Shown here: piece by piece, positions 7,099 through 12,598 of the stretch
Position numbering within the stretch: position 1 is the first letter of the stretch
Layout: the number at the start of each line of letters is the position of its first letter
From: a virus
Direction: 5' to 3' (one strand)
Length of the DNA: 21,433 nucleotides
IMG/VR virus record: IMGVR_UViG_3300048793_000068
Coordinates: 1 to 21,433 of that record
Notes under the pieces: model-generated
What the model saw: only the letters and a program-made list of their open reading frames with translations
Told to the model about the DNA's origin: nothing
Databases searched by the model: none
Translations under genes and position numbers: made by a program

Positions 7099-7127
7099 AC
7101 TATAGGCTTCGCGCAAGATTATGTCAA
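7099..7127 (-). promoter_or_regulatory. Sigma70-like promoter for the portal-head gene block
   Basis: On the minus strand, TTGACA (7127-7122) and TATAGT (7104-7099) are separated by exactly 17 bp. The -35 box overlaps the end of the small secreted protein gene. The first start codon downstream is at 7060. An operator-like palindrome (7072-7086) follows the -10, and a half-site lies in the spacer. Confidence 0.75.
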
Positions 7128-7330
7128 CGCCGCTTCCGATGACGGGGCTGGCGGACCTTCAAACAAGCCCGTCCCTTGGCGATATCCGCAGGGGTAGCGG
7201 TGGTTCGAATATACGCCGCCAGTGTTTCTGGCGACATATTCTTCACCGCCCAGCGCACCTGAGCGCAAGTGAAAGCGCTCGCTTCCGCCGCGAAAAGGAT
7301 CAGGAAGGCTATCGCCAGAAAAATTTTCAC
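7124..7330 (-). CDS. Small secreted protein at the end of the lysis cassette
   Basis: This 68-aa protein is read from a GTG at 7330 that overlaps the upstream TGA (GTGA). It begins MKIFLAIAFLILFAAEASAF, a clear Sec signal peptide with likely cleavage after ASA (residue 19). The mature part of about 49 residues includes FTCAQVRWAVKNM, PADIAKGRACL and a basic tail (RQPRHRKRR), with two Cys. Similar 'FTC..VR.......A..ARRCL' proteins are found in phages. The role is not established. It would act in the periplasm or be exported. A TTG at 7345 with GGAAG before it is an alternative start adding five residues. Confidence 0.65.
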   Translation of the reverse strand: MKIFLAIAFLILFAAEASAFTCAQVRWAVKNMSPETLAAYIRTTATPADIAKGRACLKVRQPRHRKRR

Positions 7331-7554
7331 TTGTACTGCGGGCAACCAAGCTTCCGCCCAATCTCATTCCGTTGATGGATGTCGAGGGCCACGAGGTAAG
7401 CTGCGTAGCGCTGAGACATTTTGTTACGCGTGTTGTATGAGATCGGCCCCACCAGAGCCGCGCAGATCGGAGCGATGCTGGCCGGGGGTAGGTCTTCCGG
7501 TGTACAGCCCGCCGCCATACATGACAGCGTAAGAGCGATTAAGCACCTATACAT
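7327..7554 (-). CDS. Small phage lipoprotein (possible outer-membrane lysis component)
   Basis: This 75-aa protein begins MYRCLIALTLSCMAAGC, a lipoprotein signal with lipobox AAGC and lipidated Cys17. The mature part has PPASIAPICAALVGPISYNT, QRYAAYLVALDIHQRNEIGR and LGCPQY. This 'piC.aLvGPI.YN....s.RyAa..L..Di..RN.iG..LgCp' pattern belongs to a recurrent family of small phage lipoproteins. Because it lies right after lysozyme and holin-like genes, it may serve as an outer-membrane spanin-like subunit, but it lacks the Pro-rich body of classic Rz1. The RBS is strong (GGAGG, 5 nt before the ATG). Confidence 0.7.
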   Translation of the reverse strand: MYRCLIALTLSCMAAGCTPEDLPPASIAPICAALVGPISYNTRNKMSQRYAAYLVALDIHQRNEIGRKLGCPQYK

Positions 7555-7569
7555 GATATCCTCCAGGGT

Positions 7570-7920
7570 TCAATTCTTCGGGTTATCCCACTTGTCTGCC
7601 GGTGCCTTGTGCTTCGCATTCGGGCGCGGGGTCGTTGACGTAACAATCTTACCCACCGCTTGGTCCAATACTGCCTGCTTGGCTTGCCAGCGAAGATCGG
7701 TGTCATGCTGAATATGCCCGCCCCAAATGAGCATAGCAACAAAAACCGCCGCCGCCCACAGGAAGTCGATCCTGAGTTTCCCAAGGAAAGGGCCGATCAC
7801 GGGGATGAACTGAGAGAGAAAGGCCAGGGCGATACAGCCGCCAGCGAGGATCACCAGGATGCTGTAGTCAGCAACCAGGTGCCAGACGCCGGCAAATGCT
7901 ATGGTTAAAAATAGGATCAT
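7570..7920 (-). CDS. Holin-like membrane protein
   Basis: This 116-aa protein begins MILFLTIAFAGVWHLVADYS and has three hydrophobic segments, at about residues 1-18, 21-46 (ILVILAGGCIALAFLSQFIP) and 53-68 (FLWAAAVFVAMLIWGG). A hydrophilic C-terminal tail ends PADKWDNPKN. Its ATG overlaps the lysozyme stop by 1 nt (TGATG). The topology, size and neighbours suggest a holin or pinholin that triggers lysis. It could also be an inner-membrane partner of the following lipoprotein. No holin family is recognised by sequence. Confidence 0.6.
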   Translation of the reverse strand: MILFLTIAFAGVWHLVADYSILVILAGGCIALAFLSQFIPVIGPFLGKLRIDFLWAAAVFVAMLIWGGHIQHDTDLRWQAKQAVLDQAVGKIVTSTTPRPNAKHKAPADKWDNPKN

Positions 7921-8405
7921 CAGTCCTCCCGTATGCAGTAGGCGCGTTCCGCATGGCGCCGGTTGTCCAGGCCCACCAAGACCTTATGATTGGCCACATC
8001 GTACTTCAAGAAGTCATCGCAAGCGCGCGCCGTGCGCCCCGCATTCATGTCCGTCTTGATACTCGATTTCTTGAGTGTACCCTCTCCCTCGTTATAAGTA
8101 AAGGACAAAACTGCCGAATAGCGGTGAGGGGGCATAGCCACCTTGATCTGTCGATCTACCATCTTGATATAACGAGGCAATTCGCCTTTGAGCAGCTTGG
8201 CGCACTGGGCGTCCGAGAAGACCTCGCCAACCCGGATATTCGGATTGTCGTAGTTCGTAAGGCCATTGCAATAAGTGATTATTCCAGCGGGGTCGATCTT
8301 CTGGTGGCGAGCAACATGGTCGATGCCTTCCCATACCCCTAGGAAAGGAATGGTGATGGCGAGGACAGCCGCGACTGGGCCTGAACCACGCGGCGCCGAG
8401 CTCAC
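7920..8405 (-). CDS. SAR-type endolysin, lysozyme-like (GH24-type)
   Basis: This 161-aa muramidase-like protein would cleave peptidoglycan glycan strands. From the GTG at 8405 (GTGA overlap with the protease stop) the N-terminus has a weakly hydrophobic Ala/Gly-rich segment, VAAVLAITIPFLGVW (about 10-25), with no clear cleavage site, as in signal-anchor-release endolysins. It is followed at once by the catalytic E26 (WEG), D38 in DPAGIITYCNGLT, and T44, giving the E-D-T triad of P21/T4-type lysozymes with about three extra residues between E and D. Later motifs include YSAVLSFTYNEGEG and LDNRRHAERAYC. The length is normal for the family. A TTG start at 8411 is possible. Confidence 0.8.
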   Translation of the reverse strand: MSSAPRGSGPVAAVLAITIPFLGVWEGIDHVARHQKIDPAGIITYCNGLTNYDNPNIRVGEVFSDAQCAKLLKGELPRYIKMVDRQIKVAMPPHRYSAVLSFTYNEGEGTLKKSSIKTDMNAGRTARACDDFLKYDVANHKVLVGLDNRRHAERAYCIRED

Positions 8406-9226
8406 GAACAAGTCGCCTTATCTGGCATCACACTCTTCACGAACTCTTGAATGTCAGAGAGTTGAACTGAAAGGGCAACGGGGGCTATCGCCTGGTAGCC
8501 ACGAACGACTACCCCGATGATCTCTCCCCGGTCGTTGTAAAGGGCGCCACCTGAACTGCCGCCACCGATTGGGGTGGTTGACTGGGTAAGGCCGTTGTCA
8601 CCATCCAGGCCAAGCGCACGATAGTTGCGCTGGGTGCTGGCGATGATGCCATTCGACACCGATGAATACAAGCCCTGTGGATTTCCTACGGCGTAAGCTG
8701 CATCCCCGCGCGCGGGCTGCATGCAAGCGATCTTGGCGTCCTGCCAGTTTGGCAACTTGGCTTGGACTTGTACCAGTGCAAGATCGCTATCACTGTCGCT
8801 CTTGATAATTTTGAATACATAGCTGGTCCGGGAAACTTCATTCGGTCCTCGGAAGACCAACTGGCTGACGGTGCCCGGCACTGAGACGCGGACTTTTTCG
8901 GTTGTCTGTTTGCCCTTGTCATCGTATTTCTCCCGCTCAACGACTGTGTACTGCTCCGCAATGCAGTGGTTGGCGGTCAACAGGATGCCTTTATCCTTGT
9001 CCACCAGTGTGGCTGAACAGCCTGTGTTCAGCAGGAAGTTGGTTTGGTCGATCTGCACATTCATCGGCACCTGTTCCCACGCATGAGCGTAGTGAAACCA
9101 GCCGACTATAATGGCGATGATGACGAGCCCAGTTTTCACCACGACAGATGCCTCATGATAAGGATCAAGATAATCCGAAACAGCATCAAGGGCAGCCAGC
9201 AGATGATCTCTAATAAACGACAGCAT
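8402..9226 (-). CDS. Membrane-anchored trypsin-like serine protease
   Basis: This 274-aa protein has a membrane anchor near the N-terminus (VVVKTGLVIIAIIVGW, about 28-43), then a trypsin-fold domain. The catalytic triad reads His87 in LLTANHC, Asp148 in SDSDLALVQV and Ser225 in GGGSSGGALYNDRGEIIGV. The topology suggests a periplasmic catalytic domain. I chose the ATG at 9226, which has GAGGGGG about 7 nt upstream. A longer reading to 9334 adds a 36-aa lead with no RBS. The gene lies between large terminase and lysozyme and overlaps the lysozyme gene, so it belongs to the lysis block. It could aid lysis, process virion proteins or defend the infected cell. The substrate is unknown. Confidence 0.8.
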   Translation of the reverse strand: MLSFIRDHLLAALDAVSDYLDPYHEASVVVKTGLVIIAIIVGWFHYAHAWEQVPMNVQIDQTNFLLNTGCSATLVDKDKGILLTANHCIAEQYTVVEREKYDDKGKQTTEKVRVSVPGTVSQLVFRGPNEVSRTSYVFKIIKSDSDSDLALVQVQAKLPNWQDAKIACMQPARGDAAYAVGNPQGLYSSVSNGIIASTQRNYRALGLDGDNGLTQSTTPIGGGSSGGALYNDRGEIIGVVVRGYQAIAPVALSVQLSDIQEFVKSVMPDKATCS

Positions 9227-9344: not shown

Positions 9345-10790
9345 CTAATCTAGGTCAAAGTCAATATCGCGCGCCATCGTCTGTGACTGCCGCGTAAATT
9401 TTGATCCAAGTTGTGCGGGCGCCGCATAGCGCCGCATCATAATCCCAATGCGAGTGGCCGACATTAAATCGTCGTTGACCTTCTCGATTGCCCCATTTTT
9501 GTCACGATGTAAATTTCGAAATTCTTCAAACCAATCCGACAAGTGTGCGGCGACTTTCAACCGGCCGGTCGTGATGCGCTGATCCATCTCGGCGTAGCCC
9601 GCCTCAGTACCGTAGCCACCCTCGGGGAACGTCGCGTGCTCGGGCAACATTCTCAGCCCCTGCGCGCGGTAGATCGACGCCAGCGGTTGCCCGCTGCCGT
9701 GTTCGCGAGCCGTGCCGTCTTGAGGCCAGGCGACTTTGACCGCCGCAGCGTAAACCTTCATTGCCGCCGCGTGCTGGATCGGCTGCATGTCCTTGACCCG
9801 GATGCTGTGCAGGATATGGATCACATCGTTGTCGCGGTCCCAGGCGTACAAGATCGCCGCGAACGGATGCGCGATACCAAAGTCTATGCCCCACAGCTTG
9901 ACCCAGGTGGGAGGAATGTAATCCACATAGGGCTCTTTGATGTTGGCTTCATCGTAGGGGAACACGCGGCCGAAGCCGGCCATCGGTATTCCCAGGCGCC
10001 GCGTCTCACGCTCATGTATCGGCCAGGAGGCGACCAGCGCGCGCTTCTGCTCCAGTGTGTAGTGCTCGGCGTCGTCCAGGATCATCTGCACCATCACGCG
10101 ATCTGGGGAGATTTCCTTGGTGAACTGATCGACCAAGGTGTTCAGGAGCGGGGTGGCCGTGACAAGCATAATGCCTTCGCCAGCAAGGCGCGTGAGGAAC
10201 TCAGGGTATATGTCGGCCTGGGTTTGGGTAGGCATTTCATCGCACCATCCAAAGTCCAGGGCGGTTCCTTGGAATTTATCACGGCCTTGCTCATACGACT
10301 TGAAGCTGAAACTGGACACGCCATCTTTCACCCCTTCTGTGAAATGCTGCACACGCAGTGTATCAAATGCATTCGAGACACCTCGGGCCAGAGTGTAGCC
10401 TAGGAGCTGCTCCTTGGGGATCATTCCTGTTCCGTGAAGCGACGTGATACCCGCTTCGCCGCAGAGTTTCTCTTGCATGACTTCTCGAACGGATAGGGAA
10501 GTGATGCCGGCTCCCCAACCTTTTGTGGGATGATCGAATTTCTTCCCCGCCCACCATTCGGGGTAAAGTCCCGTGAGGTGACAGGCCACTTCAAAGCCAC
10601 CCGTTTCGGTTTTGCCAACGCGGTTTCCCGCCATGAATAGTCGCTCACGTTTGGTTGCTCCCAGATCGAGGAAGAGTTTCTGCTTCGGGTATGGCTTGAA
10701 GTACAGCAGCTTGTTGAAACGACGATGGTCATCCATCGCGTCAAGCAGCGCCAGGGTGTCTTTCAGCTCCTGCTGGGTTGGCTCAGTCAC
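9345..10790 (-). CDS. Terminase large subunit
   Basis: This 481-aa DNA-packaging motor has an N-terminal ATPase and a C-terminal nuclease. Walker A is AGNRVGKT (54-61) and Walker B is LDFGWCDE (about 178-185). The coupling motif is LVTATP near 209-214, and the nuclease begins with LWGIDFGIAHP (Asp303). The pattern is that of T7-type large terminases. I chose the GTG at 10790, which overlaps the TGA of a 24-aa upstream gene (GTGA). The frame is open to a GTG at 10841, which would add 17 residues read across that small gene. It works with the small terminase encoded upstream and the portal. Confidence 0.88.
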   Translation of the reverse strand: MTEPTQQELKDTLALLDAMDDHRRFNKLLYFKPYPKQKLFLDLGATKRERLFMAGNRVGKTETGGFEVACHLTGLYPEWWAGKKFDHPTKGWGAGITSLSVREVMQEKLCGEAGITSLHGTGMIPKEQLLGYTLARGVSNAFDTLRVQHFTEGVKDGVSSFSFKSYEQGRDKFQGTALDFGWCDEMPTQTQADIYPEFLTRLAGEGIMLVTATPLLNTLVDQFTKEISPDRVMVQMILDDAEHYTLEQKRALVASWPIHERETRRLGIPMAGFGRVFPYDEANIKEPYVDYIPPTWVKLWGIDFGIAHPFAAILYAWDRDNDVIHILHSIRVKDMQPIQHAAAMKVYAAAVKVAWPQDGTAREHGSGQPLASIYRAQGLRMLPEHATFPEGGYGTEAGYAEMDQRITTGRLKVAAHLSDWFEEFRNLHRDKNGAIEKVNDDLMSATRIGIMMRRYAAPAQLGSKFTRQSQTMARDIDFDLD

Positions 10791-10861
10791 ATCTTTCCCC
10801 AGATCGCTATCGCGGTCAGGCAGCCCATCACGCAGATGCACAGAATTGTAAAGTCACTCAT
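10787..10861 (-). CDS. 24-aa hydrophobic membrane peptide between small-gene cluster and terminase
   Basis: This very short gene encodes MSDFTILCICVMGCLTAIAI followed by WGKM, essentially one membrane span with three Cys. Its ATG overlaps the preceding TGA (ATGA) and its own TGA overlaps a GTG in the large terminase frame (GTGA), a double coupling that argues it is translated. The role is unknown. It may exist mainly to couple translation, or act as a small membrane effector. Confidence 0.45.
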   Translation of the reverse strand: MSDFTILCICVMGCLTAIAIWGKM

Positions 10862-11982: not shown

Positions 11983-12098
11983 TCTGGAGGACCGCCGCCG
12001 ATGCCCTAACTCATTTCGGCGCCGCGTGAAATTGACTTGGGACGCGAGAGCGTGGCAAGGCAGGAAGGCCGGGGCCGGCATGGGAGTACCCCGGGTCT
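11983..12098. other. Intergenic stretch before the repeat block
   Basis: This GC-rich spacer between the palindrome at 11968 and the first long repeat holds no credible ORF. It contains runs such as GGCCGGGGCCGGC. I found no strong promoter in it on either strand. Confidence 0.5.
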
Positions 12099-12158
12099 AT
12101 TTGTTCAATGAATACAATGGCTTGACCCATTTCATTGCATATTAATTGAGAGCGATGG

Positions 12159-12188
12159 CGCAAGATTGTTGCGCGCAATTATATTGCG
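12159..12188. promoter_or_regulatory. Paired abutting palindromes (unit 1)
   Basis: CGCAAGATTGTTGCG (12159-12173) is followed with no gap by CGCAATTATATTGCG (12174-12188). Both share the CGCAA/TTGCG arms with a 5-bp centre. Side-by-side palindromes are typical of cooperative repressor binding. Confidence 0.6.
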
Positions 12189-12252
12189 TGGCAGGGGCCT
12201 TGCATTTGTTCAATGAATACAATGGCTTGACCCATTTCATTGCATATTAAGG

Positions 12253-12282
12253 CGCAAGATTGTTGCGCGCAATTATATTGCG
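12253..12282. promoter_or_regulatory. Paired abutting palindromes (unit 2)
   Basis: This is the second exact copy of the paired palindromes, at 12253-12267 and 12268-12282, carried by the tandem duplication. The two pairs are 94 bp apart, roughly nine helical turns, which would allow looping. Confidence 0.6.
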
Positions 12283-12283
12283 T

Positions 12284-12349
12284 GGCAGGGGCCTTGCCCC
12301 ATAGGAGGCAGGATGAGGCAGGGGCCTTGCCCCATAGGAGGCAGGATGA
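12284..12349. repeat. Perfect 33-bp tandem repeat, two copies
   Basis: Units are at 12284-12316 and 12317-12349, each starting GGCAGGGGCCTTGCCCCATA and ending GGATGA. Each contains a small hairpin (GGGGC-CTT-GCCCC). The first unit overlaps the end of the larger duplication. Fragments (GGCAGGATGA, 12391-12400; GGCGCCGGCCGAG at 12352 and 12408) continue to 12420. Confidence 0.9.
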
Positions 12350-12368
12350 GTGGCGCCGGCCGAGCACG

Positions 12369-12383
12369 CGCAAGATTGTTGCG
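12369..12383. promoter_or_regulatory. Operator-like palindrome, single copy
   Basis: CGCAAGATTGTTGCG is identical to the copies at 7072, 12159 and 12253 but stands outside the tandem duplication, so it is not explained by that duplication alone. Confidence 0.6.
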
Positions 12384-12420
12384 TGATCAAGGCAGGATGA
12401 GGGGCAAGGCGCCGGCCGAG

Positions 12421-12484
12421 GGGCTCGATAGGCGCCACGGGCTCGATAGGAACCGGCCAAGGAACCGGCCAAGGAACCGGCCAA
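12421..12484. repeat. Short direct repeats: GGGCTCGATAGG x2 and GGAACCGGCCAA x3
   Basis: GGGCTCGATAGG occurs at 12421-12432 and 12439-12450. It runs into three perfect head-to-tail copies of the 12-mer GGAACCGGCCAA (12449-12484). The period of 12 is not reflected in any plausible protein. Confidence 0.85.
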
Positions 12485-12507
12485 GCGGTCTCGAAGCGCG
12501 ATTATCT

Positions 12508-12598
12508 AATGATATCAATACTACACTAATAGCGAGCATATTTTCATTGATATCATTGGACAATTAGCATGGGTCACTCGGGACCTACACTAATAGCG
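12508..12598. repeat. AT-rich segment with inverted and direct repeats (candidate origin)
   Basis: AATGATATCAAT (12508-12519) and ATTGATATCATT (12546-12557) form a perfect 12-bp inverted repeat with a 26-bp spacer. A 14-bp direct repeat, CTACACTAATAGCG, occurs at 12521-12534 and 12585-12598. The segment is clearly more AT-rich than its surroundings and lies between the two divergent arms. These are properties of replication origins or iteron-like sites, but nothing proves it. Confidence 0.5.

Follow-up and report, generated by a model that had tools for sequence, protein, structure and literature searches.

The stretch of DNA analysed here, called the window, comprises the 21,433 bases of IMGVR_UViG_3300048793_000068, which is viral by IMG/VR classification and possibly a fragment. 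On its minus strand, the gene for the large terminase subunit is followed by genes for a protease, a GH24 lysozyme, a multi-transmembrane (multi-TM) protein, a lipoprotein and a small secreted protein. The last five make up the cassette proposed in the first-pass annotation, and we found this order in place, running from 9226 to 7124 (-) directly downstream of the large terminase gene. Beyond the small secreted protein lie two small ORFs and then the portal gene. The features are as follows.

9345..10841, minus strand: large terminase subunit (PF03237 and PF17289); upstream neighbour, outside the cassette
8402..9226, minus strand: exported trypsin-like (HtrA-type, PDZ-less) serine protease, 274 aa (PF13365; model; DegP/DegQ fold match)
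9140..9226, minus strand: N-terminal extension of the window protease, residues 1-29 (alignment; absent from L003, L006 and L007)
9080..9139, minus strand: hydrophobic segment ending YAHA|W, residues 30-49 (alignment with relatives; hydropathy)
8966..8968, minus strand: catalytic His87 codon CAC (sequence; invariant in alignment)
8783..8785, minus strand: catalytic Asp148 codon GAT (DLAL motif alignment with Deg proteases including DegQ; invariant)
8552..8554, minus strand: catalytic Ser225 codon TCA (sequence; invariant in alignment)
7920..8405, minus strand: GH24 lysozyme whose SAR-like N-terminus is weakly hydrophobic (PF00959, start codons, hydropathy, alignment)
7570..7920, minus strand: multi-TM protein, holin-like or i-spanin-like, with a predicted periplasmic tail (hydropathy; L035/L037 counterparts)
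7327..7554, minus strand: small lipoprotein, o-spanin candidate (lipobox AAGC; kept in L003, L006 and L052)
7124..7345, minus strand: small protein with a predicted signal peptide (sequence and hydropathy; kept in L003, L006 and L007)

The protease stop codon TGA (8404-8402) overlaps the likely GTG start of the lysozyme at 8405 as GTGA. This overlap, pointed out in the first-pass annotation, is real in the window but is not a conserved feature, being missing in the relatives L003, L006 and L007. A search for promoter-like sites returned three, including 9364-9336 and 7127-7099 (-), against 1.7 expected, and thus gave no evidence of promoters.

The protease matched PF13365 Trypsin_2 (E=2.2e-20; 74.3 bits, above the curated cut-off of 27.6) and PHROG 9683 'protease' (E=1.5e-19). 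Its His-Asp-Ser triad is intact, as had been claimed, with H87 in LTANHC, D148 in SDLAL and S225 in GGSSGG, and is conserved in 25/25 of the other relatives examined. At the level of sequence, a catalytic function and export both have good support. The dN/dS of the protease against L003 was ~0.08 and that of the lysozyme was similar at 0.10, with synonymous sites near saturation. Across the family the values were 0.08-0.26, corresponding to strong purifying selection, again with synonymous sites near saturation in several pairs.

We then considered where translation starts and how the product might be exported. The ATG at 9226 has the Shine-Dalgarno sequence gaggggg, and 28 codons after this ATG are extra compared with close relatives. 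An alternative GTG at 9142 has a GAGG of its own, 8 nt before it, and coincides in the alignment with the start codon of these relatives, which is preceded by a Shine-Dalgarno block (gagggggtg) identical to that of the window. In the closest relatives the N-terminus reads MLKT(A/T)(F/L)AV..IVLGW.HYAHA|WEQ and places the hydrophobic stretch at the extreme end, and an AxA site of the Sec signal-peptide type follows this stretch in the window and relatives alike (YAHA|W). Relatives with unlike hydrophobic stretches still end in A-x-A, or a close variant, before the conserved W. Because such varied stretches share A-x-A followed by W, a cleavable signal peptide is the simpler reading; the window segment is probably of this kind, and a retained anchor is less likely. 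The membrane anchor described in the first-pass annotation is not supported as the working state of the protein: relatives carry ordinary signal peptides and the window copy has the same YAHA|W site, though with its 28 extra residues this copy may retain an anchor. Cleavage would leave a mature enzyme of 225 residues, soluble in the periplasm.

Cysteines point the same way. All family members carry the pair in GCSATL..LTANHC, which we take to occupy the position of the chymotrypsin Cys42-Cys58 disulfide. In the window subfamily both cysteines of a second pair (C168 and the C-terminal Cys) are either present or, as in L006/L007 and L041, missing together, and nearly all members of the other subfamily have a different C-terminal pair. 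Even cysteine numbers in the mature domains are as expected for periplasmic disulfide-bonded proteins, and one or two disulfides would stabilise the domain. Together, the conserved export signal and the paired cysteines argue for the exported, periplasmic orientation suggested before, rather than a cytoplasmic one.

An AlphaFold2 model of residues 50-274, built from 14 sequences of the mature domain only, had a pLDDT of 83.6 and a pTM of 0.82; a model from four full-length sequences had a pLDDT of 35.4. Among solved structures, the modelled domain was matched best by DegP/DegQ (Z 24.7, rmsd 2.5-2.6 A, 185 residues aligned), and other HtrA protease domains were also among the best matches (Z about 23-25). 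No Pfam match to a PDZ domain was obtained for the window protease, and the chain ends soon after the protease domain. The suggestion of a PDZ-free, DegP-like protease thus agrees with the modelled fold. The likeness to Deg/HtrA proteins (DegP, DegQ, DegS) extends to the order of the triad and the predicted periplasmic location, whereas the phage-encoded protein differs in the missing PDZ domain, in the cysteine pair around the catalytic His and in its identity of about 20-26%. NCBIfam Deg models also scored far below their cut-offs (Do-family, 67.7 against 416.2), and for these scores and the lack of a PDZ domain we did not file the protease in the Deg/HtrA family despite its fold.

The lysozyme matched PF00959 (E=6.9e-26), with a likely GTG start at 8405 and an alternative TTG at 8411; its weakly hydrophobic N-terminal segment (hydropathy 1.73) and GH24 domain make it a putative SAR endolysin. 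The next protein, previously labelled holin-like, does have several TM segments. The charged loop that precedes the last of them predicts a periplasmic tail, and its counterparts in L035 and L037 gave weak matches to Rz-like spanin PHROGs, so that it may be i-spanin-like or a dual protein. The layout of this protein and the lipoprotein fits a two-component spanin, with PHROG matches that were weak or below significance. The lipoprotein relative at L052:7745-7975 weakly matched the Cor superinfection exclusion family phrog_1119 (E=0.065), probably reflecting the lipoprotein signal only.

Viral contigs yielded nothing when queried with the protease by itself; its relatives were reached through the terminase and then with profiles, giving a phage-borne family of 25 relatives besides the window copy. 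Four related records (L003, L005, L006 and L007; terminase identity 89-92%) carry the terminase and all five cassette genes in the order of the window. Within this group the proteases are 66-69% identical and occupy a fixed position between terminase and lysozyme. L052 shares the genes from terminase to lipoprotein, but its lysozyme, multi-TM protein and lipoprotein are only 34-44% identical. The group also shows insertions: an HNH-like ORF lies between terminase and protease in L007, and L006, L007 and L032 have an insertion between the lipoprotein and the secreted protein. Two small ORFs absent from the window were seen in L003, L006 and L007. One, of 29 codons (L003:8579-8668, MIQLYIFWVALWQEGMRVSLEEMYGHPSP), lies between protease and lysozyme, begins in an ATGA shared with the protease stop, extends into the start of the lysozyme and possibly encodes a tiny membrane protein; the other (L003:7593-7826), between terminase and protease, is Ala/Pro-rich (MPNDPSDPRNDPNYAKERAANIAAHTAAAAKAAQ...).

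Outside these contigs, well-covered relatives among 50,697 phage records were confined to three Sulfitobacter phages (six records). Genome contigs yielded no full-length bacterial relative but one weak match, 25% identical over part of the query, and a plasmid search gave partial Deg/trypsin matches, none covering 80% of the protease. Isolate phages with related terminases (Rhizobium, Microcystis and Achromobacter phages) have no annotated protease beside the terminase, and the more distant contigs L008, L011, L013 and L023 had neither a Trypsin_2 nor a GH24 match. The homologue of Sulfitobacter phages pCB2047-A, pCB2047-C and NYA-2014a (SUAG_00063 / SUFP_011) belongs to the same family at 27-34% identity (tblastn). 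It likewise has a signal peptide and the triad and adjoins genes for XhlA, a 3TM protein and a GH108 endolysin; it differs in having no second cysteine pair, in the type of phage and endolysin, and in being followed by a gene with an MPP domain. It is annotated by domain only, and we found no functional study of it.

When we examined the genomic settings, about half of the relatives adjoined endolysin or holin genes, in at least seven distinct settings, so that homologues are far from being always found outside lysis modules. The lysis genes concerned were of several kinds, namely SAR and non-SAR GH24, GH108, M15 and DUF1906. The neighbours were GH24 in the window group and L052; holin phrog_1356, a SAR-like lysozyme and an Rz-like protein in L035-L040; GH108, a 3TM protein and XhlA in L041 and the Sulfitobacter phages; CHAP-like and DUF1906 genes in L051; M15 in L073; GH24 without a SAR segment in L075 and L079, the latter also with a GTA-type holin; and GH24 with a holin-like ORF in L082. 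In L034 and L055 the protease lies 2-3 kb from holin or spanin-like genes. About half of the homologues had no recognised lysis gene beside the protease (L044, L045, L056, L072, L074, L076-L078, L080, L081 and L083), a label that is itself uncertain because many family members are on short fragments. Here the protease was found with a T7-like RNA polymerase and an endonuclease (L044), near portal and scaffold genes (L045, L056 and L081) or with the terminase downstream (L080 and L083).

In all seven records with a detectable GH24 lysozyme, that gene was 237-1,172 bp from the protease. Compared with random placement in the same contig, this proximity gave a Fisher P of 1.9e-5 for the seven records and 3.9e-4 for five lineages, values that are supportive rather than final, as the test is conditioned on GH24-bearing records, partly on short contigs. 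On a tree of 25 members, lysis adjacency required ~7 changes and its clustering was not significant. The L052 protease grouped with that of L045, outside the window group, even though L052 and the window have matching neighbours. With further homologues located close to portal, terminase or T7-like RNA polymerase genes, the protease gene is mobile: it moves between phages and repeatedly lands beside lysis genes.

Lysis by phages of Gram-negative hosts is described as three steps directed at the inner membrane, the wall and the outer membrane; to our knowledge, none of these is proteolytic. We tentatively propose, giving it close to an even chance, that the protease assists lysis as an accessory factor by cutting envelope proteins of the host in the periplasm, both the class of substrate and the effect on lysis being inferred. 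Exported through Sec and presumably freed of its signal, the protein, a single Deg/HtrA-type domain soluble in the periplasm, would probably be expressed late together with the lysis genes and accumulate in the periplasm. Its targets might be tethers of the outer membrane or peptidoglycan, host lysozyme inhibitors or other envelope proteins, and their cleavage would speed up wall digestion and outer-membrane failure or make them more complete. The recurrent linkage to different endolysins speaks for this reading; the homologues away from recognised lysis genes and the lack of significant clustering of lysis adjacency on the tree speak against it. Endolysins differ in kind from setting to setting whereas the protease is retained, so an endolysin is less likely to be the specific substrate. 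A role in place of the spanins was also considered and not adopted, the window having both a lipoprotein and an i-spanin-like candidate; a crude lipobox scan of the other members found lipoproteins only in L003, L052 and L055.

Lysis borders are common landing sites for accessory genes, and the protease might be such a 'moron', an exported envelope protease that has no role in lysis and serves another purpose, for example superinfection exclusion, breakdown of receptors or of phage proteins that have been injected, or escape to the surroundings upon lysis. The mobility of the gene, the grouping of the L052 protease with that of L045 and the homologues near portal, terminase and RNA polymerase genes all agree with this, as does the temperate nature of some carriers (Sulfitobacter phage pCB2047-A has an integrase). 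However, linkage to different endolysins in several lineages exceeds what a neutral landing site needs, and the window group has kept the gene in one place, the terminase-lysozyme interval, at the identity given above. We consider a 'moron' somewhat unlikely, though it is the main rival.

The first-pass annotation had listed envelope-protein cutting, which we favour, beside degradation of superinfecting phage proteins, which our results neither favour nor disfavour, and activation of the SAR lysozyme or holin. In the last case the protease would process the phage's own lysis proteins, cutting the SAR segment of the lysozyme, the holin or a spanin to release or activate them. The genes are adjacent and overlapping in the window, SAR-like lysozymes adjoin the protease in the window group and L037, and SAR endolysins can depend on a helper for their release, as seen in phage Mu (PMC9239132). 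SAR-lysozyme activation is nonetheless unlikely, because homologues adjoin endolysins that have no SAR segment (GH24 in L075 and L079, GH108 in L041), with DUF1906 in L051 and M15 in L073 as further non-SAR cases. The SAR endolysins known to us, moreover, exit the membrane without proteolysis, and we hold processing as a whole to be improbable. Another possibility is periplasmic quality control of the DegP/DegQ type during infection, in which the protease would clear misfolded envelope proteins, damp envelope stress and prevent premature lysis. The protease domain is closest to DegP and DegQ, but it lacks the PDZ domain with which substrates are captured or cages assembled, and such a role would call for early expression instead of a position among the lysis genes; we regard it as quite improbable. 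A head or virion maturation protease, to which the portal and scaffold neighbours in L045, L056 and L081 might point, is largely refuted by export, since export signals and paired cysteines are conserved in these three as well, and is very improbable.

For a protease with a part in phage lysis, the nearest functional precedent is the CARD-NLR-like LypABC of Caulobacter crescentus, in which mutation of the LypA peptidase Ser abolishes restoration of GTA-mediated lysis; this 2026 report found the peptidase domains to be essential for GTA-driven lysis (PMC13236601). Both cases would involve trypsin-like peptidase activity in host lysis, there by a phage-derived element in an alphaproteobacterium (PMC13236601). 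LypABC is, however, host-encoded, large and multi-domain, with CARD, ATPase and endonuclease parts, and shares no architecture with the window protein, whose predicted mature form is a single domain of 225 aa without a CARD/ATPase fusion. Phage Mu gp25, the releasin, is an accessory lysis protein that aids an endolysin (PMC9239132), but it is a small DUF2730 membrane protein without a protease domain and acts on the cytoplasmic side. The Rz/Rz1 spanins target the outer membrane as the last step of lysis, and candidates for both partners are present in the window cassette; unlike the protease, they are not enzymes. In the open-access literature we found no report of a periplasmic protease as a phage lysis protein nor, LypABC apart, of a phage protease encoded within a lysis cassette.

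If an exported protease does recur in lysis modules for this reason, a proteolytic step would be added to lysis, and proteolysis may have been missed so far as an aid to the release of phages. This would bear on how some phages finish disrupting the outer membrane, whose breakage by spanin-less phages is an open question (PMC6139136), and would be consistent with the Caulobacter GTA peptidase report (PMC13236601). A broader generalisation, which we regard as rather unlikely, is that an exported 'lysis protease' constitutes a fourth class of lysis protein beside holin, endolysin and spanin, cutting envelope protein tethers, transferred among unrelated phages and docking beside any endolysin. 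As isolated Sulfitobacter phages carry a homologue, the idea of a lysis protease is directly testable.

Several minor features were also observed near the protease genes and elsewhere in the window. In several lineages, a gene whose product has an HTH-like N-terminus is found close to the protease (L037:7021-8253, L041:6627-7778, L055:3703-5559, L073:3540-5114 and L079:7464-9092); PHROGs assigned it as an exonuclease in L037 (phrog_704) and a DNA transfer protein in L055 (phrog_1745), and an MPP domain is noted in a Sulfitobacter record. L045:4272-5207, immediately upstream of the protease, encodes a protein predicted to be exported; it carries an HESTH (HExxH-type) motif and may be another exported protease. 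In L044, the intact gene is followed at 7541-7920 by a short copy of the protease GGNSGG region with duplicated flanks, which is either a duplication or an assembly artefact. In the window itself, positions 12011-12567, between two oppositely oriented gene blocks, contain repeats whose translation shows LICNEMGQAIVFIEQ twice as well as SCLLWGKAPA and GRFL repeats, perhaps representing a regulatory or repeat region.
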